64,000 bases of DNA from Lachnospiraceae bacterium MD308 (GTDB lineage Bacteria > Bacillota > Clostridia > Lachnospirales > Lachnospiraceae): assembly GCA_010206225.2 (NCBI GenBank), contig VIQU02000017.1:1-64000 (forward strand). Reading direction: 5' to 3'. How positions within the stretch are numbered: the stretch's first letter is position 1; the number at the start of each line of letters is the position of its first letter. The notes under the pieces were generated by a model. It was not told where the DNA came from. It did no database searches and saw only the letters and a program-made list of their open reading frames with translations. Shown here in pieces: positions 34,266 to 57,220 of the stretch. The position numbers and the translations under genes are program-made.

Positions 34266-36614
34266 TTACTTTTTGATCCTGCCGCTTAGTTGAACTTTAC
34301 TCCATGTTCCATACAATGTTTCTCTGCCGTACTTCTTATAACTGCGCACCCTTACATAATACTTCTTTCCTGCTTTCAGCTTTGTGACCGTGCAGGGGGG
34401 CTTTGTCAGTTTCTTGAACTTCACATTTTTCCTGAATTTTTTATCTGTACTCACCTGCACTTGATATCCCGATGCCGTCTTATCCTTTGCCCATCTCACT
34501 GTCAGCTTTTTACCCTTTTTTGCTTTTACTGACTTTACAGACTGCTTCTTCGGGCTTACTTTGATCGTCACCTTTTTAGACACTTTCTCTGCCTTGATGG
34601 TTATGACCGCAATTCCAGTGTTTTTAATCGTAACTTTTCCAGTATCCTTATTTACAGATGCAATCTTAGGCTTAGAACTTGTAAAGGTCATCCTGCTTCT
34701 GGATGAGGCATTGATTTTAAATGGCTTCACACCGTATGAAACTTTATACAAAGTCTTCTTACAGACAATGGATGCGGCCGGCTTTTGATCTGCCGCCTTT
34801 ACAATGATAAAGCTGACCGTGCTGCTGCCAGTATAATTTCCCTTGCCAATGATTGTTACTTTTGCTGTTCCCGCTTTGATATTGTCACTATAAGAAACTG
34901 TATAGTCTGTATTTAAAACCAATGTCTTACCATCCAGCTTCACGGTTACCGATGGAATTTTAGCTTTTCCATCGTAGGTATAAATTGTTTGAGCCAGCGT
35001 CACGGCCGCATTGGAAAGATTCCCGCGGCTTTCCAAATTGCCGATGTCTCCTGAATTGCCGCCGTCGTTGTTATCGCCGTCATTGCCTTCATCAGGATTG
35101 GTACCGGCGGGAGGAATGTAATTATAATGTATCGTCGCCTTTGACACTGCTGTTGCCGTATCGCCCAGTTTCCTTATACCTTCCCACTGCGCTTTAGTGC
35201 CAGTATAATATATATCAGCCAGACCGCAGGCTGAGAATGCGGCTATCCCGATTGTCGTTACGCTTGCAGGAATTACGACGGTCGTAAAACCAGAGCAGGA
35301 AGCAAATGCTGACGCTCCGATACTATCTGCGCCATCCGGAATCTCCACTCCTGAAAGCATGAGGCAATCCTGAAACATTCCCTCGCCAATGCGGTCTATA
35401 CTTCGAGGCAGCGTTACACGCATCAGATAGCGGCACTGTGTAAACATATTATCGCCCAGCTTTACCTTCTTGCCACCAGAAGTAAATGCCGCGCTTTTCA
35501 TTGCCTGACATTGAAAAAACGCAGCGGCGCCTACTTCCTCGACACTGGCCGGCAGTGCTATAGAGGTAAGACTTGCACAGGCGCGGAAAGCATTTTGCCC
35601 GATTACTTCCACACCTTCGGAGACAAATACCGAACTAAGATTTTTACATTCGCAAAAAGCACTGTCACCGATCGTCTTCACACTAGAAGGAATCGTTACG
35701 GAAATAAGCGAAGAACCACGGAAAGCGCTGTTTCCGATTGCTGTCACCCCCGAGGAAATCTCGGCGCTAAGCACCTCGCAGTTCCAAAAAGCACAAGCTC
35801 CGATACTGGTAACTCCCTTTTCGATTACAACCTTCTGAATCTGGCCGCGGTATTCGCTCCACGGCTGTTCCTGAGCACTGCTAAAATCCGGCATACTCCC
35901 CTTTCCAGAGATGGTCATCGTGCCGGCTTTTGTCAGATTCCATGCAAGTCCTCCGACCGTCCCGCTTGCACATGATACATCGGCTTCTGGATCATCCGGC
36001 GGAACATAACCTTCCGGATAACGGGTAATATAATGACTCGTATCTGCCATCACCTCTGCTTTGGATATCGCCCGTCCCCAGTGAACCACACCCTTTTTTG
36101 CTTCGCTGCTGACGTTTCCCTCTGCAACGATCACACCTGACTCATCAGCCTTAAGCACGATCACAGTGTGGACATCATTGCTCACACGGAGGATATCCCC
36201 GGATTTTATATCCTCATATTCAAATTCATCTGCCGCATACATTCTGGCCGGAAGATCGCCGAATGCCTCATCGCTGAGTATAAAAGCAAAAGCTACACAA
36301 CCAACGGCGCTAATATTCACCCCGCCAAGGGTTCCGCCCTTCCAATGGTAATTACCCTTTGAGTCTGAATACGGCTCATCATTGGTCCATGTCGCTCCTT
36401 CCTGATAGCCATCCTGATTTTTCAATGCGATTATAGATGCATAGACTTCCTTCGGAGACGGAATTGAACTGTTGCTGGAACCCAGTCCGGATGCGGCTTC
36501 TTCCTTAAGAACATCCTCCTGTCCCGAAGAGCTTTCCTGCCGTGCGTATGACACTGACTTTGAAGAAACGCATAAACACAGCGCTAAAACAATTGAAATC
36601 ATTCGCTTTTTCAA
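34266..36614 (-). CDS. Secreted BspA-type LRR protein with papain-like N-terminal domain
   Basis: The 782-residue protein starts with a signal peptide (MKKRMISIVLALCLCVSS). Residues ~55-200 form a CHAP/NlpC-like cysteine-peptidase or amidase domain with candidate Cys106 (NISAVGCVAFAF) and His149 (NDVHTVIVLKADE). Residues ~225-500 hold BspA-type leucine-rich repeats of about 23 residues (VTAIGNSAFRGSSLISVTIP). A linker rich in Asp/Gly/Asn (~505-530) leads to a bacterial Ig-like domain, a Lys-rich segment and a fibronectin-III-like C-terminus. No LPXTG is seen, so it is secreted or held by charge. It may bind host or wall ligands. It stands alone between terminators. Confidence 0.85.
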   Translation of the reverse strand: MKKRMISIVLALCLCVSSKSVSYARQESSSGQEDVLKEEAASGLGSSNSSIPSPKEVYASIIALKNQDGYQEGATWTNDEPYSDSKGNYHWKGGTLGGVNISAVGCVAFAFILSDEAFGDLPARMYAADEFEYEDIKSGDILRVSNDVHTVIVLKADESGVIVAEGNVSSEAKKGVVHWGRAISKAEVMADTSHYITRYPEGYVPPDDPEADVSCASGTVGGLAWNLTKAGTMTISGKGSMPDFSSAQEQPWSEYRGQIQKVVIEKGVTSIGACAFWNCEVLSAEISSGVTAIGNSAFRGSSLISVTIPSSVKTIGDSAFCECKNLSSVFVSEGVEVIGQNAFRACASLTSIALPASVEEVGAAAFFQCQAMKSAAFTSGGKKVKLGDNMFTQCRYLMRVTLPRSIDRIGEGMFQDCLMLSGVEIPDGADSIGASAFASCSGFTTVVIPASVTTIGIAAFSACGLADIYYTGTKAQWEGIRKLGDTATAVSKATIHYNYIPPAGTNPDEGNDGDNNDGGNSGDIGNLESRGNLSNAAVTLAQTIYTYDGKAKIPSVTVKLDGKTLVLNTDYTVSYSDNIKAGTAKVTIIGKGNYTGSSTVSFIIVKAADQKPAASIVCKKTLYKVSYGVKPFKINASSRSRMTFTSSKPKIASVNKDTGKVTIKNTGIAVITIKAEKVSKKVTIKVSPKKQSVKSVKAKKGKKLTVRWAKDKTASGYQVQVSTDKKFRKNVKFKKLTKPPCTVTKLKAGKKYYVRVRSYKKYGRETLYGTWSKVQLSGRIKK

Positions 36615-37269: not shown

Positions 37270-38517
37270 TTATCGATTCTTTCCAAGCCGGACTTCCACC
37301 GTCTGGGATTTGTATTCACCATTATTCTTCGGAACCTGAACCGTAACTTTAATCGTCTCTCCCGCTCTATAATACTGAAGCTGCTCCTTGAGCGCTACTG
37401 TACTGTTGATCTGCGTACCTTCAATTGCTGTAATGATACAGCCCTTTGTAATACCCGCTGCCTGTGCTCCGCTGCCGCTTACCACATCAGATACATAGAC
37501 TCCGGTCGGCATTCCATACATCTGGGCGCTGTCTTCCGATACATCCACCGGCTGAATCCCGAGATATCCCTGCTCACTTTCGGATACCTTAGTCTTTGTC
37601 TTCTGATTCATCAGATTCGTAATGACATCCTGTGCATCGGAAATCGGGATTGCATATCCCATCCCCTCCACTACATCCGTAGCGACTTTGATCGTATTGA
37701 TTCCGATCACTTCACCATTTGCATTCAGAAGAGCTCCGCCGCTGTTTCCCGGATTGATCGCCGCATCTGTCTGGATCAGTTCACTGTCAAACCCATCCAG
37801 CGTTCTCTGGGTTGCAGAGACAATTCCTGTTGTCACAGACTGTCCGTATCCTAACGCATTTCCGATCGCGATGACCTGTTCTCCTACCTGAAGCTGCGTG
37901 GAATCACCCATCTGCGCCACTGCGATCTTTCCTTTTGTAGATTCTTTGATATCCTTCATCTGAACTGCGATCACTGCAAGATCACGCACGGAATCTGTAC
38001 CTTTAATATTAGCCGTCACACTTTCCTCGTCAATAAATGATACTGTCAGCGTATCGTTTCCTTCTACAACATGATTATTGGTCAAAATCAGAAGTTCTGT
38101 ATCATTCTGCGCGATGATAATTCCAGAACCTGCACTCTCGCTCTCCTGCTCGTGGATTCCCCCGAAGAAGTTCTGCACCTGCTTCACACTCATATTTGTG
38201 ATCGATACTACAGAAGGCATCGCATTTTTCGCTATCGCGGAAATATCGGATGTTACTGCCTTTCCAGATCCGGTCGTAAGCTGTGTGTTACCAACCGTCT
38301 CCGTTTTTTGTTCTGCCACTTTCGGGGCAGTTTTAAGAAGTTTCCCTGCTATAATATTACTCGTTTGAAATGCGGCGCTTGCCACGATTCCGAAAATCAC
38401 TCCCAGGCCGATTACCTTGATAACCGTCGGAATTTTTTTATTCCTTTTCCGTCCGTGCCTATCTCCATAATTCATATTGTCCTGATCCGGTGTGTAATAA
38501 CTATACTGATTATCCAT
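37270..38517 (-). CDS. htrA: HtrA/DegP-type serine protease
   Basis: The 415-residue protein has a membrane anchor at ~30-55 (IPTVIKVIGLGVIFGIVASA), then a trypsin-like domain with catalytic His149 (LTNNHVVEG), Asp179 (SVRDLAVIAV) and Ser259 (NPGNSGGALLN). A PDZ domain follows at ~315-410 (YLGIQPVDVSEDSAQMYGMP; GAQAAGITKGCIITAIEG). It degrades misfolded proteins on the outer face of the membrane and contributes to envelope stress resistance. It has a divergent basic N-terminus, as in Gram-positive HtrA. The zinc-ribbon gene follows about 80 bases later. Confidence 0.95.
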   Translation of the reverse strand: MDNQYSYYTPDQDNMNYGDRHGRKRNKKIPTVIKVIGLGVIFGIVASAAFQTSNIIAGKLLKTAPKVAEQKTETVGNTQLTTGSGKAVTSDISAIAKNAMPSVVSITNMSVKQVQNFFGGIHEQESESAGSGIIIAQNDTELLILTNNHVVEGNDTLTVSFIDEESVTANIKGTDSVRDLAVIAVQMKDIKESTKGKIAVAQMGDSTQLQVGEQVIAIGNALGYGQSVTTGIVSATQRTLDGFDSELIQTDAAINPGNSGGALLNANGEVIGINTIKVATDVVEGMGYAIPISDAQDVITNLMNQKTKTKVSESEQGYLGIQPVDVSEDSAQMYGMPTGVYVSDVVSGSGAQAAGITKGCIITAIEGTQINSTVALKEQLQYYRAGETIKVTVQVPKNNGEYKSQTVEVRLGKNR

Positions 38518-38681: not shown

Positions 38682-39320
38682 TTAACCGGTATATGCACTG
38701 TACGCTTCCTTAAGATCTGCCAACGCCTCTCTCAGCAATGCATCCGAACGTACCGCCAGATTAAATTCATCTTCTGTCTGCCGAAGCATCTCCTGAACGT
38801 CCATATGTCCCGTAATCACCCGAAGCTGCTCTTCCTTCTGCTCCTTGGGAGCGGCCGTATCTATCTGATACTCTCCGCTTTTTTCATCCTTCGACACATA
38901 CAGCGTAACCAGTCCGGGAACTTCCGTATATATCTCTTTTATCTTCATGTGATATTCTGCAAATGCAATATAAGTGCCTCTATATTGTCCGACTTTTGTA
39001 TATACATGAAGATCATCATACTTTTCTACAAAAGTCTCGCCTTTCGTAAGCCCTTCAAAGTATTCTGCTATCGCCCTGTTAATCTCCGGATGCTCGTCTT
39101 TCCTGAGAGGATTCAGCTCCTTTATATCACAGCCGATATTCTGAACTCTTATATTCTCTGCGCGGTTTATCTTACGTACCTCTCTTATCTGCGCCTTTTC
39201 TTTGGTCAATCCCAATCCGGCCGCTCCTGCCGCAAAAGCCACCAGTGCAAGAAGAATCAAAAGATTCCTGCCCTTGTGTCTTCCAAGCTTTGCAAGACAG
39301 CCCTCAAAGACATTCTTCAT
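38682..39320 (-). CDS. Membrane-anchored protein of unknown function
   Basis: From ATG 39320 (GGAGGAGG upstream) the protein has 212 residues: a basic N-terminus and one transmembrane helix (GRNLLILLALVAFAAGAAGLGL), then an extracytoplasmic helical part with YVSKDEKSGEYQIDTAAP. No catalytic motif or known family is evident. It lies just downstream of tRNA-Arg and before a strong terminator, apparently as a single gene. Confidence 0.7.
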   Translation of the reverse strand: MKNVFEGCLAKLGRHKGRNLLILLALVAFAAGAAGLGLTKEKAQIREVRKINRAENIRVQNIGCDIKELNPLRKDEHPEINRAIAEYFEGLTKGETFVEKYDDLHVYTKVGQYRGTYIAFAEYHMKIKEIYTEVPGLVTLYVSKDEKSGEYQIDTAAPKEQKEEQLRVITGHMDVQEMLRQTEDEFNLAVRSDALLREALADLKEAYSAYTG

Positions 39321-39356
39321 AGACCTCCTCCAAATATCTGCGCATTTTTTAAGGTA

Positions 39357-39428
39357 CACACCCGGGCGGATTCGAACCGCCGCTCCCGCCTCCGGAGGGC
39401 GGTGCTCTATCCCCTGAGCTACGGGTGC
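39357..39428 (-). tRNA. tRNA-Arg (anticodon CCG)
   Basis: A full cloverleaf is visible on the minus strand: acceptor GCACCCG with CGGGTGT (ending in a G-U pair), D arm GCTC-AGGGGATA-GAGC, anticodon arm CCGCC-CTCCGGA-GGCGG giving anticodon CCG, and T arm GGCGG-TTCGAAT-CCGCC. CCA is not encoded. It reads the rare arginine codon CGG. tRNA genes are frequent integration targets, but no integrase or duplicated 3' end is next to this one. Confidence 0.95.
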
Positions 39429-39542: not shown

Positions 39543-40208
39543 TTATGAACTATAGCCGCCCGAAAATTCGACTAATACAGCACTTTTCACACCTTTTATC
39601 TCAGAAAGAGTGTTAACAAAAGAAGTATCCCCTTCGTTCATGTGCATCTCATAAGTCAGCTCCGTGTAGTCTTTAACAACCGTTTTATTTTTCAGCACTT
39701 TTTTCTTAGACTCCATCTCTTTTTCAACCACTTCTGCAGCCTCATCTAAATATTTGATAACTAGAAGATATTGCCGTTTCCCAACCTTGCATTTTACTAA
39801 TATGATAAAAATAGCCGCAATAAATACTGTTCCCAACAGGGATATTATGTACAGACTTGCTCCGCTGGTCACACCTACTGCTACCGTCCAAAAAAGGAAC
39901 CCTACGTCCAACGGGTCCTTTACTGCCGTGCGATATCTTACAATCGACAATGCTCCTACCATACCTAATGAAAGTACTACATTAGAACTGATTACAATAA
40001 CCATAAAACAAGTAATCAAACTGGTCATAACAAGTAAAATATTAAAATTATTGTTATAAATCACTCCTCTGTAAAAGTTTCGATATACTGCAAACACGAT
40101 CATTCCACAGATAAATGCTACCAGCATAGACAAAACAAATTTCTCAATTGTAAGGTCTCCTGCCTCTTCCAAGAAACTTTTTTTAAAGATGTCTGCAAAT
40201 GTAGTCAT
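39543..40208 (-). CDS. DUF4956 membrane protein
   Basis: The protein has 221 residues from ATG 40208 (GGGAGG upstream; four-base gap or overlap with the VTC gene). Three to four membrane helices are at ~18-40, 50-75 and 100-130 (YNNNFNILLVMTSLITCFMVIVISS; GALSIVRYRTAVKDPLDVGFLFWTV in overview). The conserved GALSIVRYRTAVKDPLD is the signature of DUF4956 proteins, which are almost always encoded with VTC-domain proteins and often CotH. A cytosolic C-terminal domain follows. Role unknown; transport or anchoring for the associated polymerase or kinase is an inference. Confidence 0.9.
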   Translation of the reverse strand: MTTFADIFKKSFLEEAGDLTIEKFVLSMLVAFICGMIVFAVYRNFYRGVIYNNNFNILLVMTSLITCFMVIVISSNVVLSLGMVGALSIVRYRTAVKDPLDVGFLFWTVAVGVTSGASLYIISLLGTVFIAAIFIILVKCKVGKRQYLLVIKYLDEAAEVVEKEMESKKKVLKNKTVVKDYTELTYEMHMNEGDTSFVNTLSEIKGVKSAVLVEFSGGYSS

Positions 40209-40209
40209 T

Positions 40210-40908
40210 TTACATATACCTCCCTTTCTCATTTAAACACATCGTATATTTTGAAATCGCGCATCTATCTATTGTTACAGAACGCAGCGTCTGCAAAAAA
40301 GCGCTCGGCAAGAATTCATCATATTTTACTTCCATAACTACAACTCCCGTCTGTAACGCTCGACAAACGCTGTAATATTCCGAAAACACATCGTAATCAC
40401 CAATAGAAAAAGAAATGCCCTTATCAAAGGTAATTCGCACATTCCCCACTTTAAAAATATACGCTTCACGAAAATACTCCACTGCTATTACCGGCTTTAA
40501 TAAACGCGAATGATGAACTGCATAGAGTTCTCTGCATATATTTCCCTTTTCCAAAAGGAAATCATATTCGTCTTTTAAAATTGCATCATACTCTGTCCTA
40601 TTGAATTCCTCACTCTCTTTAGCCGTATAGTCCCCGTATTTCTGTTTACATTCTAACCGAATCAGCTTGTCTTCTCGATTATAACATCGCAATCTGTATT
40701 TTTTTCGAAATTGTACTCCTGCCCGCTTTTCTTCCAACGCAGAATGATAAATATCGTCAAAGTACACACTGCTGACCAGATAGCCCTCTTCTTTCATATT
40801 CACATCCGGCTCTGCAATAACCTGTAATAGCTTACGCAAATTAAAATAATCCCTTTCACAGATATAATATTTTATCTCATGTCTAACTGTCCGCCCCAGA
40901 TATTTCAT
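40210..40908 (-). CDS. VTC domain protein (polyphosphate polymerase-like)
   Basis: The 232-residue protein contains a VTC tunnel-fold domain: VRHEIKYYICERDY at the N-terminus (the RHExKY signature), FRKKYRLRCYN, RLECKQKYGDY, VRITFDKGISF and VVMEVKYDEFLP carry the basic and acidic residues that line the nucleotide/polyphosphate tunnel. In yeast Vtc4 this fold makes polyphosphate from ATP; bacterial homologues are poorly studied. It is read together with the DUF4956 gene downstream and the CotH gene upstream (10-base gap), implying a shared phosphate-related activity. Confidence 0.92.
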   Translation of the reverse strand: MKYLGRTVRHEIKYYICERDYFNLRKLLQVIAEPDVNMKEEGYLVSSVYFDDIYHSALEEKRAGVQFRKKYRLRCYNREDKLIRLECKQKYGDYTAKESEEFNRTEYDAILKDEYDFLLEKGNICRELYAVHHSRLLKPVIAVEYFREAYIFKVGNVRITFDKGISFSIGDYDVFSEYYSVCRALQTGVVVMEVKYDEFLPSAFLQTLRSVTIDRCAISKYTMCLNEKGRYM

Positions 40909-40918
40909 AAATCCACCA

Positions 40919-42595
40919 TTATTCTATTCTAAATTCCAACAGACCATATACATTGGTTTCCCTGCCATCCACTAATTGTCCAATAAAATGCTCAAAATCA
41001 ATCTGCTCATGCCCTTCACTGTCTATTGCAGATACCCGTACAAAATAAACGCCTGGCTCTAGTTCTTCCCTTAAAATCCAGCTGGTATCTTCAATTCCCT
41101 CCTGCCAGAATATCGGCCCATTCATGGCGGCATCAAAAACCTCTACCTTATAAGTAATGGGAAGTCCCTGATAAGAGTAGGATGAATCCCATGCAAATCT
41201 CAATGAGCCGTCTTCCTGTTTTTCTGGTTTAGCTACAAACATAGGAGCAGGATAGAGAATATTTTCCTTATATAATTCATAACACCCTTCCATTCCCTCG
41301 TAAAGACTAGCCAGACTCACTCCTAACTCCTGCATCGTCATGTCTATTTGCTCTACATCTGACGGCGTAAACAATATTTTCCCTAAAACCCCTTTATAGG
41401 AATCTACAAGCGCTGTTACCTTTTCTTTTGTGATAACTTCATTTAGTAATTCCTTCATTTTTTTCTGAAGTTTTTCTATACTGCCCTCCAGTCTGAAATA
41501 TCTGCGATGCAACACCGACATATTAAAACCTTGTATACTTCTCAGCGAAAGCCGATGATTCCACGTATCCTTATATTTCTCAAAATCCAATGCTCCATCA
41601 AAATCCCACGGAAGGAAATACCATGTCTTAGATTCAGCGGGACTGAAAAAAATGTAATTATGACTTATTACATCTTCATTTCCCATCAATAAATTAAATG
41701 CAAGCCATGTTAAATAATTGTCCTCATCAAAATAAGTCTGAAAAACCTTTTCAAAATCTAACGACATATCGTTGACTGCTGTAAGCATCTCCAACAATTT
41801 TTCATGACTGTTACCTGATTGAATCCTAAGTACAGTTTCAAATTCCTCTTTATTATATTGAGGATCATCTACATTCCTTAACTTATCAGAAAGTCCAAAT
41901 GCAAAATTGTTCGCTTTATACATAACTGCTTTTTTCCCGAAACCTCTTGCTCTCAGATAGTCCTCGTTCGGCTGTTCTACTTCTGTATAAAGTCCATGAT
42001 ATTGAAATTCCTGCTCCTCTTCCGGCAGTGAAACATCTTTAATCCATACTCTCATGAAATATGTACGATAACTAAAAATATCATCCATATCCGCCAGTAA
42101 ATCTGTCTGCAGCTTTGTTGCGATTTTATATGAATCCTGAGTATGCTTATTAATATTCAAATTAGTCTGACCAAAAAAAGGTTCTGTATTATTTTCTAAT
42201 TTCACTTTATAACTTTTATATTCAGCACTTCTTGTAGACCCTCCCCTGACTCGTATAGTTGCGTTTTTATGATCTATATCTTTTTTTAAATCCGGTGCTT
42301 CTCCTTCGTTCAATATCTGTACATTACAGTCCAAAGTAGGATTATAATATGTACGGTTTTTTGATGTACACTGAGAAAATGCCGAAAAATCAAGGATATT
42401 TCCTGCATCATCCTTTGTCGGAAACACACTTATATAAACATCATAAATACTATTATCACGCTCATAAATATCTTTATTTTCCACTATTTTTTCAGACGTT
42501 GTTCTTCTTCCCAAATCAACATATAGAATAAAAAACAACACAACTGCCATCAATACCATCAAAATAAGAATTACTTCTTTTTTGTTTTGCTTCAT
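40919..42595 (-). CDS. CotH-type kinase, membrane anchored
   Basis: From ATG 42595, which has AAAGGAG upstream, the protein has 558 residues; the frame extends further up but would run into the glycosyltransferase gene. A transmembrane helix (EVILILMVLMAVVLFFILYVDLG) anchors it outside the cell. The CotH domain covers ~70-430, with RVRGGSTRSAEYKSYKVKL (ATP-binding strand), NEDVISHNYIFF and the metal motif WYFLPWDFDGALDFEKY. The C-terminal ~100 residues form a fibronectin-like domain. CotH enzymes are secreted kinases that phosphorylate Ser in spore-coat proteins; here the context suggests a polysaccharide or wall substrate. Confidence 0.9.
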   Translation of the reverse strand: MKQNKKEVILILMVLMAVVLFFILYVDLGRRTTSEKIVENKDIYERDNSIYDVYISVFPTKDDAGNILDFSAFSQCTSKNRTYYNPTLDCNVQILNEGEAPDLKKDIDHKNATIRVRGGSTRSAEYKSYKVKLENNTEPFFGQTNLNINKHTQDSYKIATKLQTDLLADMDDIFSYRTYFMRVWIKDVSLPEEEQEFQYHGLYTEVEQPNEDYLRARGFGKKAVMYKANNFAFGLSDKLRNVDDPQYNKEEFETVLRIQSGNSHEKLLEMLTAVNDMSLDFEKVFQTYFDEDNYLTWLAFNLLMGNEDVISHNYIFFSPAESKTWYFLPWDFDGALDFEKYKDTWNHRLSLRSIQGFNMSVLHRRYFRLEGSIEKLQKKMKELLNEVITKEKVTALVDSYKGVLGKILFTPSDVEQIDMTMQELGVSLASLYEGMEGCYELYKENILYPAPMFVAKPEKQEDGSLRFAWDSSYSYQGLPITYKVEVFDAAMNGPIFWQEGIEDTSWILREELEPGVYFVRVSAIDSEGHEQIDFEHFIGQLVDGRETNVYGLLEFRIE

Positions 42596-42683
42596 ATATT
42601 TTGCCGTCTCCTTTATAAATAACATTCCGATTCTTTTAGATACGGATGATCTTGGTATTTTTAGTGTATCATATACATTTTCC

Positions 42684-43724
42684 TTAAAACAGATCGCAAA
42701 ATAGCCGCCGGATTGTGTTAGCGAATCGGTCCATGGAATCTCTGTAAACCGGATATACATATTTTATCACCCATGTATTTTCAAGACATATCCATACAGA
42801 ATCTTTCAGCAGCCTGAAAATACTGATCTGACCATGCCAGTGCAATTGACGCATCTGACGGCAGGAACTGATGATCCGGCATATGCATCTGTATTTTACG
42901 GCAAGTATGTATCTGCGCCTGAGTTTCCAGTAAGCAATCCTGTCTCTTGAAGTTCTGTCGTCGATGCCGCAAAGATCCGCAATTTCATCTATCAAATCCT
43001 CATACTCCCGATATCTTTCTTCCTCTTCTTCCTGTGTCAGCCGCATTCTGGAATGGCTCCCCTGCCTGACGCACACCCCGTACAGTTTTTTTGGAATGGT
43101 AGGGCATCTGTGCCGGTACAGAAAGGGAAGAAGCATCTGGAAATTCTGTCCCACATGGTATTCCGGTATACGGCGTTCTGGATAAATCTGAAAGAACGGC
43201 TCCGTTCTCAGCATGTAACACCCGCAGCAGACATATGTCCGATTCTCCAGAATATCCCAGAAAAGCTCTTCATTGGAATAATCTTCCATATTTTCATCTG
43301 CCCGCACGTATTTTTCTGAATTCTCTTCATAATAGTAAGCAAGCGTCCTGACGCACTGATACTCCGAATGTTTTTTCAGAAATTCAACTCTTTTTTCTAC
43401 CGAATCTTTCTCCAGCCTGTCGTCAGCATCCGGCCAGATCAGATACTCTCCCGTCACAAAAGGAAGCCCCTCATTTATTGCCGCCGCCGCACATTTATGT
43501 TCCGCGCATACGATACGGTATTTATACCCTCTGGCAGCAAATCTATCCTGATAGCTTTCTGCCGCCTGTACCGTGCCATCTGTTGAGCCGTCGTCAACCA
43601 GAATCATCTCCATCTCTTTGTAGGTCTGTGAAAGGACGGAATCCAGCATTGGTAAAAGATACTGCTCTCCATTATACACGGGCATGACAATGGATACTCT
43701 CCCTTTAACAAACATCTGGACCAT
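42684..43724 (-). CDS. Family 2 glycosyltransferase
   Basis: The 346-residue protein has a GT-A domain with VSIVMPVYNGEQYLLPMLDS, DDGSTDGTVQAAESY and the metal-binding DADDRLEKDS (~90-100). The C-terminal ~100 residues are basic and amphipathic, probably membrane associated. It transfers a sugar from a nucleotide donor to a growing glycan. The donor cannot be predicted. It overlaps the DUF1919 gene upstream by 20 bases. Confidence 0.92.
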   Translation of the reverse strand: MVQMFVKGRVSIVMPVYNGEQYLLPMLDSVLSQTYKEMEMILVDDGSTDGTVQAAESYQDRFAARGYKYRIVCAEHKCAAAAINEGLPFVTGEYLIWPDADDRLEKDSVEKRVEFLKKHSEYQCVRTLAYYYEENSEKYVRADENMEDYSNEELFWDILENRTYVCCGCYMLRTEPFFQIYPERRIPEYHVGQNFQMLLPFLYRHRCPTIPKKLYGVCVRQGSHSRMRLTQEEEEERYREYEDLIDEIADLCGIDDRTSRDRIAYWKLRRRYILAVKYRCICRIISSCRQMRQLHWHGQISIFRLLKDSVWICLENTWVIKYVYPVYRDSMDRFANTIRRLFCDLF

Positions 43725-44325
43725 TCAGGAATTTCACATAATCAAAGTCATCCAGATACCGTCTTTTAAAAAACTGTTCTTTGAAAAATGTAATAACTCC
43801 CACCTCCTTTTCTTCCTCAAATCCCTTTATATAATATGCTGACGGAAACTCCGGGTATCTTACATGCGTAAATATAACTTTATTCTTATACGGAAGCTGT
43901 TGAAAACGTCTGATCGTCTCATAAGTGCACCCATCTTTTTCCACTCCTGCTATGAACAGATTATCCCAGTTTATTCTTTTCTTTCTCTCTTCCCATTTCC
44001 AGACCGCTTCCTCAAATGTGCCGTAATGTATAAAACGAATTTCCACGTCTCCAAGAAATCCAACCGGATAACCCTCCTTCGTTTCAGCCTGAGTAATCTT
44101 CTGCTCCATGTACCATCTTAGATTCTCCGCCATTTTAACAAAGTCATTCATAGGGATGCTTAAGTTGATTGTCGGGGAAAGGTACGGCAATTCCATATCC
44201 TTATACATAAACATTCCGATGCAGTTAGATGATATTATGGAAAAGTCACTATTTTTCAGCTTTCTCCGTCTTTTTTGCTTATATGCCGACCATTCTAAAT
44301 CCCTGATTCCATTTCTTAGGAGCAT
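43705..44325 (-). CDS. DUF1919 family protein
   Basis: The 206-residue protein carries the DUF1919 pattern: LKNSDFSIISSNCIGMFMYK near the start, LPYLSPTINLSIPMNDFVKM, then YPVGFLGDVEIRFIHYGTFEEA and VIFTHVRYPEFPSAYYIKGF. The family occurs in capsule and exopolysaccharide loci and is thought to modify glycans; the reaction is not established. It lies between the ABC transporter and a glycosyltransferase gene, all on the minus strand. Confidence 0.88.
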   Translation of the reverse strand: MLLRNGIRDLEWSAYKQKRRRKLKNSDFSIISSNCIGMFMYKDMELPYLSPTINLSIPMNDFVKMAENLRWYMEQKITQAETKEGYPVGFLGDVEIRFIHYGTFEEAVWKWEERKKRINWDNLFIAGVEKDGCTYETIRRFQQLPYKNKVIFTHVRYPEFPSAYYIKGFEEEKEVGVITFFKEQFFKRRYLDDFDYVKFLNGPDVC

Positions 44326-44352: not shown

Positions 44353-46092
44353 TCATTTCACCTGTATGATTTTTTGATTTTCAATCTTATATATCCGGTC
44401 ACACTCATTTGCCAGACTCCTGTGGTGGGTTGCGATCAGTATTGTTTTATCCCCCTTTATCCTGCGGATAGAATCTATCACCGCTTTTTCTGTTTCCAGA
44501 TCCAGCGCTGCCGTCGCCTCATCCATTACTAAAAGCTCGAATTCTTTATATAAAGCCCGCGCCAATGCAATCCTCTGCCGCTGTCCTCCGGAAAGCGCGG
44601 TTCCGTTCTCCCCGATCAAGGTATGGATCCCTTCCGGCATCCTTTCAACGTCCTCCCAAATCTGCGCACATTTCAGACACTCCATGACCTTTCTATCATC
44701 TATCTCATCCTCACGTGTAAAAAATGCCACATTGTTCCGGATGGTTTCCCCATTCAGATACACAATCTGCGGGATATAACTAACAACTGTCCCAAGCTTT
44801 GCCTGACAGTTCCCTGCCGCATCACTTTGTGTGACAATGTCATAATCATCGTACAAAATACTTCCAGACTGCGGTTTCAACAGACCAAGCACCAGATCCA
44901 GAAAAGTTGTCTTCCCCGCGCCCGACATCCCCATAACAGCAACCGAGCAGCCTTTTGGGATATCTATGGAAGCCTCTTTAAATATTTCCGCGTATTTATG
45001 ATATTGAAACGAAAGATTTCTAACCCGAATTCCTTTTTGAAACGTTATCTTTTTTTGTCTGATCTGGCCGTCCAGCTTCTCCTTTTGCCGCATCTCATCA
45101 TACCGCTTTAAATTCTCCCTTAATGCCTCGTAAGATTCCTTTTTAAATTCTATGCTGTTCATCCCGTCTACCAAAAAATAAGCCAGCGGTATGACGCGAA
45201 TCAAAACCGTAATATAAACTACCATTGATACAAGAATATGAATCAATGCCTCCTTCTGGCCCCACATAAGAAACGCAAGAATAAAGAAAAGAAAACTCAT
45301 AACCGAATTTTGCATGATCACGCCGATTACGCTGGTTCTATATTTAAACTTTCTCTGTACTTTCGCATATTCGCTGCTTGCGTTCTGATAGCGCTCCAGC
45401 ACAAGTTCCGGGTTGTCAGAAAGTTTCATTTCCTTGAAAACTCCATATGTGATCGTAACCTGCGCATTCGTTTTAATCAGATTTTTCCTGCTTCTTATGC
45501 CATAGTCTTTAATCTGCGTGCGAAATTTGCAAAACATCACAGCCATAAATACGAGTAATAAAATACAGCTTATAACACCGATCCATTTTGACACATAAAT
45601 CAAAACAAGAAAACAGCCTGCCATTGTAATAAAATTCGGTCCCAACCGGATTCCTGTTATCAGAATATCAATACAGTTCTGAGTGTCCGTCCGCACCATG
45701 GACAACGCCTGCATAACGCTCTTCTGATTATGATAAAGCAAATCCTCTTTTATTAACAGCTCGCAAACCTTCACAGACAATCTGTGAGCTCCATAATATT
45801 CCAACTGATTCGATATCTCACATTTGTACAGTTCAAAAAGTCCTGCAAGGAGCGAGGCAATCCCCATAAAGAGAGCAAACCGCATCATTTCCGTCGAAAC
45901 CTGTTCTTCACTGACAATTGTATTAACGATATAAATAAGCGATGAGAAACTAAAAACATCTATGACCGGACTGAAAAAGCAAAAAATAATCAGTATTCTC
46001 CATGTCTTTTTATCTTCTTTTTCCAGAATACCTGTTAAATATCTAAACATTTCCATACTATTTTCCATTTGTTTTATTATCGTTTTTTCCAT
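44353..46092 (-). CDS. ABC transporter (fused membrane and ATPase domains)
   Basis: The protein of about 579 residues has six membrane helices in the first ~330 residues and an ATPase domain after ~350, with Walker A GMSGAGKTTFLD, signature ALSGGQRQRIALARAL and Walker B LLVMDEATAALD. It is an exporter half-transporter that works as a homodimer, in the style of MsbA/PglK-type flippases. In this locus it is a candidate to flip a lipid-linked oligosaccharide. The exact start is uncertain (ATG 46092 or 46065), as none has a strong ribosome site; the gene overlaps the end of the glycosyltransferase gene upstream. Confidence 0.9.
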   Translation of the reverse strand: MEKTIIKQMENSMEMFRYLTGILEKEDKKTWRILIIFCFFSPVIDVFSFSSLIYIVNTIVSEEQVSTEMMRFALFMGIASLLAGLFELYKCEISNQLEYYGAHRLSVKVCELLIKEDLLYHNQKSVMQALSMVRTDTQNCIDILITGIRLGPNFITMAGCFLVLIYVSKWIGVISCILLLVFMAVMFCKFRTQIKDYGIRSRKNLIKTNAQVTITYGVFKEMKLSDNPELVLERYQNASSEYAKVQRKFKYRTSVIGVIMQNSVMSFLFFILAFLMWGQKEALIHILVSMVVYITVLIRVIPLAYFLVDGMNSIEFKKESYEALRENLKRYDEMRQKEKLDGQIRQKKITFQKGIRVRNLSFQYHKYAEIFKEASIDIPKGCSVAVMGMSGAGKTTFLDLVLGLLKPQSGSILYDDYDIVTQSDAAGNCQAKLGTVVSYIPQIVYLNGETIRNNVAFFTREDEIDDRKVMECLKCAQIWEDVERMPEGIHTLIGENGTALSGGQRQRIALARALYKEFELLVMDEATAALDLETEKAVIDSIRRIKGDKTILIATHHRSLANECDRIYKIENQKIIQVK

Positions 46093-47144
46093 TTCATCCG
46101 AATATGCCCGATGCGGCAAATTAGTCCCACAACGGGATAACAACGAAACCGAAAGAAAAAAAGCAATACTTTCCTTGTCCAGTCTCCTGTTTTCCGGTTC
46201 GAATATTTCACTGCACGTTCAACCATCTGCAATCCGCGAATCTTGCGGCACAATTTATATTTTTTACTGGTCGAATCAGAATTTTGCGGATGAAAGATAC
46301 CCATTACCAGTATCCCTTTTAAATTAGAAAGCACTGCGTCATAATACCCTTCTTTCCAGACCGGATAACATGGATAGCTCTTCAGAACATCTTTCAGATG
46401 CCTGAGAAAATATAAATAATGCTTCCATGTATCTGCCTGATAACGCTGCGTTGCAGAATCTGGATGAGTCTCTATAAAGTAAACCGCCTTTTTTAAATAC
46501 ATACAGCGCTTCACCTTCATCTGATAGCCAATCTGGAAGATCTGATCCTCCCCCATAATAAGCTCCGCAGGGAACTCCAGAAAATATTGCTGTATTATCT
46601 TTCTTTTATAGGCTTTTGCCCAGACCGAACGCAAATCTGTATGCCCGCCTTTCATAAGCTGATGACAGCGCAGCATTTTATCTACCAAAAGCAAATTGTC
46701 TTTTTCATTATATTGCCTTTCCATAATCGCCTTTTGAGAGCTTTGTCTTCTTCTCAAATAGCGTCTTCTCTTGTCCGCGCCGACAAAATCAAAAATCAAA
46801 AGATCCTGAGCTTCGCATTCTTTCCGCATAATAAGACTGAAAAAATCATCCGTAATAAAATCGTCAGAATCTACAAAGACAATCCACTCCCCGCTGCTTT
46901 CGCAGATTCCCCGGTTCCGTGCAGCGGATACCCCCAGATGTTCCTGTTCAATCAATCTTACCCGCCTGTCTTTCTTTTCATACCATTTACAGATCGAACG
47001 GCTTTGATCAACAGATCCATCATTCACCAAAAGCAATTCAAATTTTTTAAATTGCGAACAAAGAATAGACTCTATGCATCTACGCAAATATACTTCTGCA
47101 TTAAAAACCGGTACGATAACCGAAATATTGACTTTTGTGTTCAT
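46077..47144 (-). CDS. Family 2 glycosyltransferase
   Basis: This is a 355-residue GT-A enzyme: ISVIVPVFNAEVYLRRCIES, NDGSVDQSRSICKWY and DSDDFITDDFF (~90-100) are the nucleotide-sugar and metal-binding motifs. The second half is helical and basic (KMRCYPVVGLICRIGH-type tail). The first bases overlap the downstream end of the next glycosyltransferase gene by four bases (ATGA), so translation is coupled. It is paralogous to the genes at 47141-48241 and 49364-50389. Confidence 0.92.
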   Translation of the reverse strand: MNTKVNISVIVPVFNAEVYLRRCIESILCSQFKKFELLLVNDGSVDQSRSICKWYEKKDRRVRLIEQEHLGVSAARNRGICESSGEWIVFVDSDDFITDDFFSLIMRKECEAQDLLIFDFVGADKRRRYLRRRQSSQKAIMERQYNEKDNLLLVDKMLRCHQLMKGGHTDLRSVWAKAYKRKIIQQYFLEFPAELIMGEDQIFQIGYQMKVKRCMYLKKAVYFIETHPDSATQRYQADTWKHYLYFLRHLKDVLKSYPCYPVWKEGYYDAVLSNLKGILVMGIFHPQNSDSTSKKYKLCRKIRGLQMVERAVKYSNRKTGDWTRKVLLFFFRFRCYPVVGLICRIGHIRMKWKKR

Positions 47145-48241
47145 TTTGCACTATCCCCCGAGTTTCTTATCCTGCTTTCCTTTCTTTCCGTGCCCAGTCC
47201 CTGCAAAAGAAAAATGCCCCATGCAACCAGTCTATACAGCCTCATACAAAACAGAACCGACGCGCCCTGCAACAATATTCTCCACACAGGAGCGCGCACT
47301 TCTTTCAGGTATTTGCCCTTTGCCAAAGCCTGAATCGTGCAGTGTACCAGATTATTTTCCCCGTATCTCTTCAAGATTTTTGCTGTCTCTTTTCCCTTCT
47401 TTCTTCCGGTCTTAAGGTTCTGTCTTCCAATTGTAAAAATCCCGCAAAAAATATGGAAAGCCAGCAGATCTCCAAACTGTTCCAATTTCCGGTGTTCTTT
47501 CAAATACCTGTATAAATATACCGACACACGAATCCAGTCTCTTTCCAAGACTTCTATATTTCTCCGATACTGGCTGGTAATCGAACCTTCCGTGATACGG
47601 TATAAATAAACGCAATCATCCACAAATGCGTACACCGGTTCACAGACGCAGCACATCATATTGCGCAGCTTATCTTCCATATGAATCTGTCTTTTACACC
47701 ACAGATGATTCTGCAGCAGGAAATCTTTCCGATAGAGCTTTCCCCAGTCCATAATCAGATGCCCTTCCGTCAGGAACCCCCGAAAGCGGAAGTCGGCTGT
47801 TTTTGTATAATCTCCGCTCTGCAGATGGTGCCGATTTACTGCTCCGTACCTTTTCCCCTGAAAACGCCTGAAATTGCCTGTCACAATATCTGCATTTTCC
47901 CTGACGGCTGTTCCTGCCAGCGTTCGGATCGTATTCTGCTGACTTAAGAGATCATCTGAATCCAGAAACAGTACAAAGTCTCCTTTCGCCTCCTTAAGTC
48001 CCGCATTTCTGGCCGCGCCAAGTCCCTGATTTTCCTGATGGATAACTCTGACCTGGCCGTATCCTTCTGCATACCAGTCACACAAACCTGAACACCCGTC
48101 CGGTGAGCCGTCATTCACCAATATGATTTCCAGATTGTTATAATCCTGCGCCAATACGCTTTCCACACATTCTCTCAGGTAGACTTCTGTCTGATACACG
48201 GGAATAATCACACTGACTTTTGAAAATCTCTGCCCTTTCAT
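47141..48241 (-). CDS. Family 2 glycosyltransferase
   Basis: From ATG 48241 the protein has 366 residues, beginning MKGQRFSKVSVIIPVYQTEV. Motifs: EIILVNDGSPDGCSGLCDWY, the metal site FVLFLDSDDLLSQQN, and AKGDFV before it. The C-terminal segment is basic with amphipathic helices. The start overlaps the stop of the pyruvyl transferase gene by four bases. It transfers an unidentified sugar in the assembly of the surface polysaccharide. Confidence 0.92.
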   Translation of the reverse strand: MKGQRFSKVSVIIPVYQTEVYLRECVESVLAQDYNNLEIILVNDGSPDGCSGLCDWYAEGYGQVRVIHQENQGLGAARNAGLKEAKGDFVLFLDSDDLLSQQNTIRTLAGTAVRENADIVTGNFRRFQGKRYGAVNRHHLQSGDYTKTADFRFRGFLTEGHLIMDWGKLYRKDFLLQNHLWCKRQIHMEDKLRNMMCCVCEPVYAFVDDCVYLYRITEGSITSQYRRNIEVLERDWIRVSVYLYRYLKEHRKLEQFGDLLAFHIFCGIFTIGRQNLKTGRKKGKETAKILKRYGENNLVHCTIQALAKGKYLKEVRAPVWRILLQGASVLFCMRLYRLVAWGIFLLQGLGTERKESRIRNSGDSAK

Positions 48242-49359
48242 ATTTCTTTTATTCCTTCTCTTATAAATTTCTCTGAATGCTCTCGTTCCTCCTGCAGGCA
48301 TCTCCTGACAGCCGGCCAGTCTATTTCCTTGTCCATACAAGCCAAATCTGCCGTCTCTCCCTGTTTTATGAGACGTTGTTCCAGCGAAAACTTCTCAAGC
48401 AGATTTTGAAGTCTGGTATGGTAAACGCTGCGCTGAAATACAAGAAACTGTTTTTCAAACAATATGGAAAAAGCCAGTCCATGAAAGGAATTTGTAATCA
48501 CGCAGGACGCATACTGAAAATAGCCGACGAATTCCTCTGGCCCTGCATCCATACGAAGCAAAAAACTCTTCTCTTGCTTCCCCTTAAACGGGCAGGATAA
48601 CTGTACCACCGGCATGCCGGATGTTTCTGAAAGTCTGTTTGTAAACCAGAGCATGAATTCCTGCGGTTCTGTAATATAAAAAAGAATGTATTTTTTTTCT
48701 TGTGGTTTTCTGCCCAGATTCCGCCATACATCTTTGTCCAGAAGAAATATCGGATCCAAAACATCTACCACCGGCCTTTTTAAAAGTCGTTCTACAAAAT
48801 CTGCCCCTTCTCTTTCACGAAGGGAAACTGCCGTAAAATTATTGCTGATCGCATTCTTGAATTCCCGCCATTCCCGTCTTGGAGGTTTCTCTCTTCCAAA
48901 GCTTGCTCCATAAGCAATCAGCCGGCATGATTCCCCTCTTTCGATATTTCCCATATAAGCGTCATCTAATCCAAAAGTAATTGCCGAATTCCAGACTTGG
49001 TCGCTTCCGACAAACACCACTTTATATGGCTGCAGCCGCAGCTTCCGCGCATCTTCGATCGGTTTTTTCCCGCTCAAATAATTTTTTCGGAAACAGCACA
49101 TAGACATCCGCCTTTTGTAAAACTGCCTCGCATAACTCAGCTTATGGAAAAAGCTTAAAAAGTTTCTGAAAAATATCCATTTTCCGCACTTATATGCTGC
49201 ATTCACAGGTATAAGCTGATATCTTCCCCGCAGTCTCAAAGGCGCATAGGGAATTATCTCTGCGGTCTCTCCCTGTCCTTCTAGATATGTTCTCAATGCA
49301 TATACCTGCAGCATCGCTCCATAATCATCCGCCCAGTAAAATGTCAAAATTCCTGTCAA
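48238..49359 (-). CDS. Polysaccharide pyruvyl transferase family protein
   Basis: The 373-residue protein belongs to the CsaB/WcaK-type family: GILTFYWADDYGAMLQVYAL at the start, PYKVVFVGSDQVWNSAITFG in the middle, and SCVITNSFHGLAFSILFEKQ near the C-terminus. These enzymes transfer pyruvate from phosphoenolpyruvate as a ketal on sugars, adding negative charge. The FrhB-like gene two positions upstream commonly accompanies it in gut bacteria. It would decorate the glycan made by the neighbouring transferases. Confidence 0.92.
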   Translation of the reverse strand: MTGILTFYWADDYGAMLQVYALRTYLEGQGETAEIIPYAPLRLRGRYQLIPVNAAYKCGKWIFFRNFLSFFHKLSYARQFYKRRMSMCCFRKNYLSGKKPIEDARKLRLQPYKVVFVGSDQVWNSAITFGLDDAYMGNIERGESCRLIAYGASFGREKPPRREWREFKNAISNNFTAVSLREREGADFVERLLKRPVVDVLDPIFLLDKDVWRNLGRKPQEKKYILFYITEPQEFMLWFTNRLSETSGMPVVQLSCPFKGKQEKSFLLRMDAGPEEFVGYFQYASCVITNSFHGLAFSILFEKQFLVFQRSVYHTRLQNLLEKFSLEQRLIKQGETADLACMDKEIDWPAVRRCLQEEREHSEKFIREGIKEI

Positions 49360-49363
49360 ACTA

Positions 49364-50389
49364 TCACCTCTTCCATAGCTTTGCCCCTATACTATCAAAA
49401 AAATCAAGCATCTTATAACAAGGCTGATATGCCGGATAACAATAAAATGCCAGCCAGTACTCAAGCTCTGCCCTCCACCCCATCCGTTTTTTTGCCGGAC
49501 AGTCCCTTTCTTTTTTCACAAGCTTACATGTGTACTGTATCAGGGGACAGTTTTGTTTCATACGAGCCGCCGCATGCCATGCACAAAGTCTTCTCACAGT
49601 TTTTTCTGTCTGCTTTTGCGCATGTAATTCTCTCCCTTTCCTTTTTTCTTGCAACCAGATATACTTATTACATGCATACATGCTCTTGCAAGCTTCTGCC
49701 GTCCGCTCCGCACTTCTGCTTCGCCAATGCTTTCTGTAGTAATAAGACTTCTCATCAAGTGCTGCTACATCTGCCCCCTCTGCCAGAAGTTGATACATAT
49801 ACTTTGTATCCTCGCCGCTTCGCAGCGCCTCGTCAAACCTGATTTTCTGAGCCTCCGTTCTCTCAATCAGCTTCCCTCCTATCGCGTATAACCGTCCCTG
49901 CGGCCGGTCAAATATAATATAATCCAGCGCTTCCCGTGATTCCAGATGCTGATAAGTCTCTTTCAAAAAACGTCCTGAAGAAGCCGACAGCCGAAATACC
50001 TTTCTCTCAAACTGTCCGGATTGGATCATGCGGAAATCTTCTGCGATGATCACTGCCTTCGTTTTTTCCTCCACTCGCATTAGCTTTTCCAGAAGCTGCG
50101 GATGAATGGCGTCGTCGCTGTCTAAAAAAAACAGATATTCCCCCGCCGCCTGTTCAAGTCCTACATTCCGCGCAGCGGAAACCCCTCTATGCTTTTGCGG
50201 CAGAAAGCGGATCCGGCGATCCTTACGGGCATACCTTGCGCAAAGTTCGTCTGATCCGTCCGTGGGACCGTCCGTTATGAAAAGCAGCTCAAAATTTTTG
50301 TAAGTCTGTTTTAGTACCGATGCAACGCACCCTTTCAAATATGGCGCGGAATTGTAGACCGGAACAATAATTGAAATCATCTTATCCAT
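49364..50389 (-). CDS. Family 2 glycosyltransferase
   Basis: The 341-residue GT-A enzyme begins MDKMISIIVPVYNSAPYLKG. FITDGPTDGSDELCARYARK replaces the usual NDGSxDxS with TDGPTDGS, and EYLFFLDSDDAIHPQLLE carries the metal site. The C-terminal ~80 residues are basic and Cys-containing. Its start overlaps the FrhB gene's end by 13 bases. Substrate unknown. Confidence 0.92.
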   Translation of the reverse strand: MDKMISIIVPVYNSAPYLKGCVASVLKQTYKNFELLFITDGPTDGSDELCARYARKDRRIRFLPQKHRGVSAARNVGLEQAAGEYLFFLDSDDAIHPQLLEKLMRVEEKTKAVIIAEDFRMIQSGQFERKVFRLSASSGRFLKETYQHLESREALDYIIFDRPQGRLYAIGGKLIERTEAQKIRFDEALRSGEDTKYMYQLLAEGADVAALDEKSYYYRKHWRSRSAERTAEACKSMYACNKYIWLQEKRKGRELHAQKQTEKTVRRLCAWHAAARMKQNCPLIQYTCKLVKKERDCPAKKRMGWRAELEYWLAFYCYPAYQPCYKMLDFFDSIGAKLWKR

Positions 50390-51468: not shown

Positions 51469-51521
51469 CTCCCTTTCCTTATAGGTTCTGACTCTTTTGG
51501 AGAAATCCGCAGCCATGCTTT

Positions 51522-56451: not shown

Positions 56452-57220
56452 TCTGTAAACCCGCCTCAACATCTTCCTTCAATACCCTTATCCGGAAAAT
56501 AACTGCCGGAATCTCAAAAAACATCCGGCACATATACCAAACGGCCGAAACCCCTTTATGCATGCTGCTCCCTCCCGTCCTCGCATGCATGACTGCCGGA
56601 ATCTCTACTATAACAAACTTAAGCAGCAACATCTGAATGATCATATTTGCATCCGGATATTTATCATCAAAATGCCGAAAATCAGAATAATAACAAAACG
56701 CTTTCCGGCTGAGCCCCTGAAGGCCCGTGGTCGGATCCGCTATTTTTCTTCCTGCCGCCGTATAGACCAATAGCCGAAACCACGCATAGGCAATTTTCTT
56801 GAACAAGCTGACCGGAAACGGAGAACTTTCTTTCATAAATCTCGAAGCCAGCACGATATCCGGAGCATGGCCGTTAACATCTGTCTCAAGCAATCTTTTA
56901 TAGATGACTGGAATATTGCATACGTCATGCTGGCCATCTGCATCCATCTGGATCACATGCCGATAATTTTCTTTCACCGCATATTGATAACCCACCCGCA
57001 GGGCATTCCCATATCCCAGCCTGTATATGTTTCTAATCAGGCGATAATGTCCGTCCTGCACGATCCGGGCAGTGGAATCCCAGGAGGCGTCGTCTATGAC
57101 AAGAACATCCGCCAGTTCCTCAATCCGCTGACTTCTGATCTGCTTTAATACTTCCTTTATATTTTTCTCTTCGTTATAAGCCGGTATGATCACCAGTAAT
57201 TCTTTCTGTCTGCTCATCAT
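56435..57220 (-). CDS. Polyprenyl-phosphate glycosyltransferase (DPM1-like GT2)
   Basis: The 261-residue GT2 enzyme is of dolichyl-phosphate-mannose-synthase type: LLVIIPAYNEEKNIKEVLKQ, VIDDASWDSTARIVQ, the metal motif HVIQMDADGQHDVCNIP, and a C-terminal part with KIADPTTGLQGLSRKAFCYY. It probably loads a sugar onto undecaprenyl phosphate for transfer outside the cell, which fits the GT-C-like membrane protein and the DUF2304 protein next to it. Genes overlap on both sides. Confidence 0.9.
   Translation of the reverse strand: MMSRQKELLVIIPAYNEEKNIKEVLKQIRSQRIEELADVLVIDDASWDSTARIVQDGHYRLIRNIYRLGYGNALRVGYQYAVKENYRHVIQMDADGQHDVCNIPVIYKRLLETDVNGHAPDIVLASRFMKESSPFPVSLFKKIAYAWFRLLVYTAAGRKIADPTTGLQGLSRKAFCYYSDFRHFDDKYPDANMIIQMLLLKFVIVEIPAVMHARTGGSSMHKGVSAVWYMCRMFFEIPAVIFRIRVLKEDVEAGLQNVDER

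Follow-up and report, generated by a model that had tools for sequence, protein, structure and literature searches.

What do a kinase, a polyphosphate polymerase-like protein and a membrane protein do together at the end of a polysaccharide operon? The question is raised by a 64,000-nucleotide stretch of Lachnospiraceae bacterium MD308 (contig VIQU02000017.1, positions 1 to 64,000; the window), in which genes for a CotH-family kinase, a VTC-type polymerase and a DUF4956 membrane protein close a Pel-type operon. The initial annotation had placed this trio at 39543-42595, and Pfam confirmed three consecutive open reading frames (ORFs) on the minus strand at 39543-42760, transcribed in the order CotH, VTC, DUF4956. 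The reading preferred here, tentatively, is that VTC and DUF4956 make and perhaps export polyphosphate, that a partner outside the cell uses or binds it, and that the CotH of pel loci acts at the exit of the exporter PelG.

The VTC-DUF4956 core and its exported partners

The kinase ORF lies at 40919-42760 on the minus strand (613 residues as the longest ORF; PF08757 E 6.6e-47; PDB 5jd9 E 2.2e-14). An inner ATG at 42595 (codon 56) falls just ahead of a hydrophobic anchor and is a plausible start. The protein comprises this N-terminal anchor, a kinase domain (∼169-463) and a C-terminal domain (∼506-613). A single hydrophobic segment was found (residues 63-81 of the long ORF) and no lipobox was seen by eye. 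The earlier description of CotH as secreted holds in the form of a membrane-anchored protein with its kinase domain probably outside the cell. G256, E262, D363 and D386, nearly invariant across the family and to which we presumptively assign catalytic roles, are all retained. The kinase domain and catalytic residues are common to the spore-coat CotH of Bacillus (5jd9). Unlike that enzyme, the window CotH is membrane-anchored and probably outside, carries the extra C-terminal domain, and has residues such as K185 and K282; these two, with a leucine at alignment column 280, are specific to the exported group. The C-terminal domain of a Streptococcus intermedius relative is described as FN3-like (PMC12345266). 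The Pfam fn3 model gave E 0.11 on the CotH C-terminal domain, below the cut-off.

The second ORF (40210-40908, minus strand, 232 residues; PF09359 E 2.3e-32) encodes a predicted VTC-type (triphosphate tunnel) polyphosphate polymerase. A profile built from 24 bacterial VTC sequences matched yeast Vtc4 (PDB 3g3q) at E 2.2e-19, better than Vtc2 or Vtc3. Residues K13, K70, R72, R74, E86, K88, K97, R147, R158, D162, E193 and K195 were invariant both in these 24 sequences and in 74 aligned sequences, and the matching Vtc4 residues presumably line its tunnel. The catalytic domain has residues matching those of the eukaryotic VTC complex (Vtc4, 3g3q, 7ytj), and in both systems a membrane partner belongs to the same unit. 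The eukaryotic complex couples polyphosphate synthesis to membrane passage (PMC9911596). Unlike it, the window has its membrane part as a separate DUF4956 protein, hydropathy giving no membrane segment in the VTC chain, and the bacterial unit includes an exported partner, either CotH or the beta-helix protein Cthe_2159. The genome of the window also encodes PPK1, Ppx-GppA not being found in it, so VTC is not the sole source of polyphosphate and was rejected as its only synthase.

DUF4956 is encoded at 39543-40232 on the minus strand (229 residues; PF16316 E 2e-8, 34.6 bits against a cut-off of 30.6). An AF2 model built from 75 sequences (pLDDT 81) has five long helices at 29-148 followed by an ACT-like domain at 150-226. 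Hydropathy gave three to five segments across six relatives, so the number of membrane spans is uncertain. An invariant R99-x-R101 lies in a helix of the membrane half. Membrane helices followed by an ACT-like domain are also the arrangement of MgtC/SapB proteins, from which DUF4956 differs in scoring 23.3 bits against the 214 cut-off of an NCBIfam MgtC-type model.

The distribution of these families was surveyed in 398 genomes drawn evenly from the phylum of the window. VTC was found in 64 genomes and CotH in 56; PelG passed its cut-off in 13. From 78 VTC rows the window and a 40-position fragment (G386) were removed, and two G308 fragments sharing one stretch were counted once, giving 75 VTC loci; several of the stretches end at contig ends. 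DUF4956 was present in 72 of the 75 loci, always on the same strand, and in 68 the gap was at most 100 bases. A VTC-DUF4956 fusion was sought in the same sample and none was seen, the longest VTC open frame being 316 residues. CotH lay within 4 kb of VTC in 40 of the 75 loci and Cthe_2159 (PF14262) in 22, both in one, giving a partner nearby in 61. Pfam confirmed Cthe_2159 in 13 of 20 neighbour proteins scanned. The layout VTC-DUF4956-Cthe_2159 was also seen in an actinobacterium (L177, Atopobium).

At the level of whole genomes the association with a partner is complete. Each of the 64 VTC genomes has either an exported CotH (49 genomes) or Cthe_2159 (the other 15), and only 9 of the 334 genomes lacking VTC have either. 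Of the 50 genomes with an exported CotH, 49 also have VTC. The common factor of VTC genomes is an outside protein for the product of the inside pair. Fisher p values of the survey (4e-48 and 1e-64) ignore kinship; the 64 VTC genomes span 33 family codes.

Export of CotH was scored from N-terminal hydrophobicity, for which values lay either at or below 1.05 or at or above 1.49; this split was chosen once the values had been seen. All 42 VTC-adjacent CotH proteins had an N-terminal hydrophobic segment above 1.7 (39 above 1.9, three at 1.72-1.86). Four of the five CotH proteins from VTC-less genomes were short and lacked the segment (1.05 or less), like the spore-coat enzyme. At a stricter cut of 1.9, G206, G255, G297 and G376 lose their exported CotH; the count of 64 of 64 stands because all four have Cthe_2159. 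A CotH match in G176 with an internal stop was left unread and counted as not exported. Cthe_2159 was counted by a Pfam match of E 1e-3 or better, with export checked beside VTC, where 35 of 36 proteins had an export segment. Among 14 named controls, in which CotH and Cthe_2159 were counted by match alone, VTC was found in three; Corynebacterium glutamicum and the archaeon M. acetivorans have CotH and Bacteroides ihuae has Cthe_2159. Bacillus subtilis, also a control, has CotH and no VTC. Very long exported CotH proteins (843-1068 residues) were observed in L060, L068, L086, L087, L122, L124-L126 and L128-L132; that of L060, the single one scanned, also bears Lamin Tail and Fn3-associated domains.

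Partner labels were clustered on the VTC tree, with 16 changes among four labels against 47.9 in shuffles. Well-supported branches nevertheless force at least three to four changes of label, and CotH and Cthe_2159 are therefore exchangeable on one VTC-DUF4956 core. All trees were quick trees with SH-aLRT support only, of 50 to 102 rows that were partly random samples, and long branches were flagged.

The initial annotation had tied the set to polysaccharide loci and had named a trio found mostly apart from polysaccharide genes as the refuting outcome; the survey went against this tie in its count, where that outcome was seen, and in favour of Pel in its gene order. Outside the window, 34 of 40 trio loci gave no match to any of ten models of polysaccharide genes over the stretch covered, and PelG lay near VTC in 2 of 75 loci, so these families were rejected as specific to polysaccharide loci. 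Locus families were called by profiles grown from window or L032 seeds rather than by Pfam, and distant polysaccharide genes may escape them. When loci were recounted by gene order, CotH-VTC-DUF4956 occurred only beside PelF or PelG genes. The remaining loci mostly had the order VTC-DUF4956-CotH (32 of the 38 non-pel trios in the phylum set) or VTC-DUF4956-Cthe_2159. The syntenic arrangement is stated in PMC12345266 as not found outside the Pel locus. We considered this statement contradicted by the survey and withdrew the objection after the recount: it is true of the exact order and not of the three families as a set.

The same layouts were found in a second, named set, the best 80 of at least 587 relatives ranked by likeness to the window DUF4956. 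In the 79 loci scored, PelF or PelG was present in 14, CotH in 49 and Cthe_2159 in 17. This set partly overlaps the phylum sample; L190 and L078, for example, have an identical VTC protein. In a Dethiobacter metagenome-assembled genome (L217), CotH-VTC-DUF4956 is followed by a PelF-like GT4 (DUF3492), with no PelG model match in the stretch; possibly another export system uses the module there.

A Pel-type CotH clade and PelG-CotH fusions

The CotH proteins of pel loci are distinct from their relatives. In the CotH tree a branch with support 100 separates their 29 rows from the 40 standalone CotH proteins sampled. The C-terminal domain is common to 30 of 31 pel CotH proteins and was found in 1 of 69 standalone ones, whereas a C-terminal membrane segment occurs in 40 of the 69 and is absent from pel CotH. 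D386 was kept in 28 of the 31 separate pel CotH proteins (two N, one unread letter), as was D363 (two E, one unread), and a few of them may be pseudokinases. Tandem CotH pairs were observed in the pel loci of L064, L208, L276-L278, L280-L282, L284, L317, L320 and L324.

In some genomes the exporter and the kinase form a single protein. PelG-CotH fusions were found in three named Paenibacillus records (L166, L167 and L184); in L166 the PelG part spans residues 1-453 and the CotH part 596-915. A search of 197 genomes of a Paenibacillaceae-like family (f33) gave PelG over the cut-off in 34, with a fused PelG-CotH in 20 and a separate CotH in 14, and all 34 pel loci have VTC and DUF4956 downstream. 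The catalytic residues were kept in all 20 fusions. Every fusion junction combines basic and hydrophobic stretches with a lipobox-like cysteine (19 by pattern, one by eye); the motif lies near residue 490 in L254-L273, and later in L263, L270, L271 and L273. Such a junction would place CotH outside the cell. Because the lipobox-like junction is kept, the chain may also be cut by the lipoprotein signal peptidase, which suggests a possible polyprotein. Neither a printed PelG-CotH fusion nor a printed VTC-Cthe_2159 partnership was found in the literature searched, most subscription journals and all preprints lying outside its scope.

Given the dedicated CotH clade, the PelG fusions with their catalytic residues and the conserved VTC residues, it is fair to infer that a kinase sits where the exporter opens to the outside, next to a maker of polyphosphate. 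The earlier phosphate interpretation of the trio keeps its footing to this extent, having lost its novelty and its tie to polysaccharide loci. The trio could not be maintained as a new type, since its presence at pel loci is already in print. According to PMC7112168 (2020), cotH, a poly-phosphate polymerase, DUF4956 and DUF4832 form an accessory group that directly adjoins pelDEADAFG in streptococci and clostridia; PMC12345266 (2025) describes the trio in S. intermedius and proposes that it takes part in phosphate metabolism. In Clostridium perfringens, VTC-domain, membrane and CotH proteins are also reported near a chitin-synthase-like gene (PMC2879425).

The trio is optional for Pel. In 12 phylum-sample genomes with a strong PelG match, the trio was in the locus in three, VTC was elsewhere in one (G136), and eight were VTC-less. 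Seven trio-less pel loci were recorded outside the Paenibacillaceae-like family, among them L288, whose stretch extends just 0.5 kb downstream.

The operon of the window and its Pel lineage

The initial annotation had described a tight operon following about 20 genes of the same strand, and this was borne out: 19 ORFs on the minus strand precede the trio, from pelD to the last GT2 gene, and with the trio they form a packed operon of 22 ORFs with intergenic gaps of -103 to +27 bases between longest ORFs. The order is pelD, pelE, a DUF2194 pelA-like gene, pelF, pelG, a cassette of 14 ORFs and the trio. The first gene lies beyond the window (contig 64506-66686; L107:2507-4687) and encodes a PelD with an N-terminal epimerase domain of the clostridial type (PF01370 E 1.6e-10). 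It is followed by an ORF of 319 residues in the pelE position without a family match (63550-64000, continuing to contig position 64509), a PelA-like DUF2194 protein in the pelA position (61707-63536; PF09960), the glycosyltransferase PelF (60218-61726; NCBIfam NF038011, 352 bits against a cut-off of 100) and the exporter PelG (58761-60230; PF16933 E 1.3e-141).

The cassette opens after pelG with DUF2304 (58336-58764), GT4 (57174-58433) and GT2 (56435-57220). Two DUF4874-DUF4832 proteins (55168-56472; 51522-52952, Pfam) flank a 730-residue protein without a Pfam or NCBIfam match (52954-55146), and an FrhB-like protein with FrhB/FdhB-C and 4Fe-4S domains (50377-51561; PF04432) completes the first half. 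The second half consists of GT2 (49364-50389), a polysaccharide pyruvyl transferase (48238-49359; PF04230), two further GT2 proteins (47141-48340 and 46077-47144), a PglK/MsbA-like ABC exporter (44353-46143; PF00005; best NCBIfam match PglK, under its cut-off), a DUF1919 protein (43705-44325; PF08942) and a last GT2 glycosyltransferase (42684-43724; PF00535). The DUF4832 protein SIR_1591 of S. intermedius is reported to be an active glycoside hydrolase (PMC12345266). ORFs of 731-899 residues, in the size range of the 730-residue protein, follow the first DUF4832 gene in L296, L299, L301 and L314.

Downstream of DUF4956, after 183 bases, lies a 225-residue ORF (38682-39359, minus strand) with one hydrophobic segment by eye and no family match. 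Because a terminator-like hairpin (minus strand, 38661-38629) follows this ORF, it may be the end of the operon; the hairpin is placed only after this neighbour of DUF4956, and the search that located it found 5 sites against 5.1 expected by chance. Two further minus-strand ORFs beyond it (34266-36614 and 37270-38517) look by eye like a large, exported protein with repeats and a serine protease of the HtrA type.

Among the closest known systems is the accessory group of Gram-positive pel loci (SIR_1594-1591 in S. intermedius), in which the same three families follow pel in the same order and DUF4832 also belongs to the locus. In the window, 14 ORFs separate pelG and cotH, so the group is not contiguous with pel; the DUF4832 genes lie inside the cassette rather than after the trio; and PelG is of a decorated type. 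The window shares PelF, PelG and, upstream, an epimerase-domain PelD with the Gram-positive pelDEADAFG arrangement. Like the pel genes of Roseburia, which lie inside larger capsule-like clusters (PMC7112168), its pel genes are part of a larger cluster of polysaccharide genes.

The origin of this arrangement was followed within the window's own family. The trio was found in 12 of 35 other PelG stretches, directly after pelG in 11. Of the 23 trio-less stretches, 13 are of the decorated type (PelG-DUF2304-GT4 and onward), with no trio in the stretch read; five of the 23 end within 6 kb of PelG, and such short stretches cannot exclude a trio because the window CotH starts 16 kb after PelG. The window PelG falls within the decorated clade (18 rows, support 99), where the trio was found only in the window and L303. 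Both CotH and VTC of the window are placed among the pel rows of their respective trees. The window CotH groups with L303 (support 97) and then with L144-L147 (support 100), and the window VTC groups with L144-L147 (support 99), L303 not being in the VTC tree. The PelG proteins of L144-L147 are distant from that of the window. In eight genomes with decorated loci VTC was present in all, on contigs other than that of PelG (one match was partial, E 2.5e-7). The window thus joins a decorated Pel type to the trio of another Pel lineage. The simplest reading is a transfer of the trio to a decorated Pel locus, or the opposite move, and the hybrid look of the window would make the trio a portable add-on to Pel.

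Readings of the trio and their meaning

In the preferred reading the trio would be a movable envelope module whose core stays the same and whose outside partner can be exchanged. Cytosolic VTC would make polyphosphate from ATP. DUF4956 would anchor VTC and probably pass the chain across the membrane, as eukaryotic VTC does through its own channel. The outside partner would be an exported CotH kinase or the exported Cthe_2159. In pel loci a dedicated CotH would sit at PelG, where the polymer emerges, and phosphorylate the nascent Pel-like polymer or a protein that handles it; this would tune the amount and stickiness of the polymer rather than be required for its synthesis. Deletions in S. intermedius bear on the last point (PMC12345266). 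Pel was still made in single deletions of each of the four extra genes; deletion of CotH lowered Pel, deletion of DUF4956 raised it, and in both mutants aggregation in sputum medium fell to less than half.

Several observations weigh against this reading. Neither partner was nearby in 14 of 75 VTC loci; an exported CotH was found in one genome without VTC (G072), and a Cthe_2159 match in eight. Most trios lie far from PelG, and Pel therefore cannot be the general target of the module. Passage through DUF4956 as a channel is unproven because its membrane half has no clear fold match: the best Foldseek E was 2.4, and the best VIA Z, 6.1 for CdsA (root-mean-square deviation 3.9, 107 aligned), is not a clear match. 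The VTC membrane domain was absent among the fold matches listed, and the whole-protein search found the ACT part only, a domain that hints at regulation as well. Most exported CotH proteins retain W385 (0.92) and Y281 (0.86). These residues lie close to the presumed nucleotide pocket, where they would contact adenine, and their retention is as expected if a nucleotide is still bound. None of the four extra genes is required for Pel synthesis in S. intermedius, and for its VTC deletion no altered Pel level or aggregation is reported (PMC12345266). In that assay CotH did not strictly need the product of VTC, which tells against a strict donor model.

Polyphosphate might instead act as glue, the exported polyanion and metal ions cross-linking the amino-sugar polymer and the surface, with CotH or Cthe_2159 holding or trimming the polyphosphate and phosphorylation of the polymer beside the point. 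The swapping of both partners on the same core speaks for this, as do Cthe_2159 proteins themselves, described as beta-helix proteins with affinity for celluloses and for acid sugars, polygalacturonic acid among them (PMC6712302). S. intermedius Pel, however, is judged to be mostly GalNAc and hence neutral (PMC12345266), its VTC deletion has no reported effect, and CotH keeps its kinase catalytic residues. We consider this reading unlikely.

A role in regulation from inside has a similarly low standing. VTC and DUF4956 would here sense ATP or phosphate and set export or envelope output, polyphosphate would stay inside, CotH would be the arm that modifies the target, and DUF4956 would be an MgtC-like protein with an ACT-like domain. 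The first Foldseek row for the ACT part was an MgtC C-terminal domain (E 0.008; 7qa5/2lqj), and VIA aligned it to 7qa5 with Z 9.6 (root-mean-square deviation 2.9, 81 aligned), a score that other ACT or ferredoxin-like folds tie or exceed. Two-component systems (an OmpR-type regulator and a histidine kinase) lie beside 31 of the 75 VTC loci, and the rise in Pel on deletion of DUF4956 fits. Left unexplained are two unrelated exported partners nearly confined to VTC genomes, and a CotH fused to PelG behind an export signal.

On the premise that ATP is scarce outside the cell, CotH might also be an ATP-free kinase, powered by VTC polyphosphate delivered through DUF4956 and phosphorylating polymers as they leave PelG. 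The near confinement of exported CotH to VTC genomes fits this, and in the Paenibacillaceae-like family the kinase would be one chain with the exporter. The quiet VTC deletion of S. intermedius speaks against it, and we regard it as rather improbable.

That CotH targets PelG-side or wall proteins, the Pel link being scaffolding only, is the most doubtful: Bacillus CotH is a Ser/Thr kinase of the coat protein CotB (PMC7821199) and most trio loci lack a polysaccharide-gene match, yet a Pel-specific target is suggested by the Pel clade, which stands apart and has its own domain, and by a gene order seen only with Pel.

Beyond what was in print, the analysis adds that the three families are not tied to Pel and occur together elsewhere in other orders, that VTC genomes follow a partner rule, that the CotH of pel loci is a single clade with a C-terminal domain of its own, that PelG and CotH are fused in some genomes, and that the window is of hybrid make-up. 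The fusions render the link between CotH and the exporter directly testable. If the preferred reading is true, a bacterial counterpart of VTC tied to exported effectors would explain the role of many VTC-DUF4956 pairs, CotH-family ecto-kinases would gain a possible source of phosphate, and there would be a handle on the modification of Pel, a biofilm polymer.

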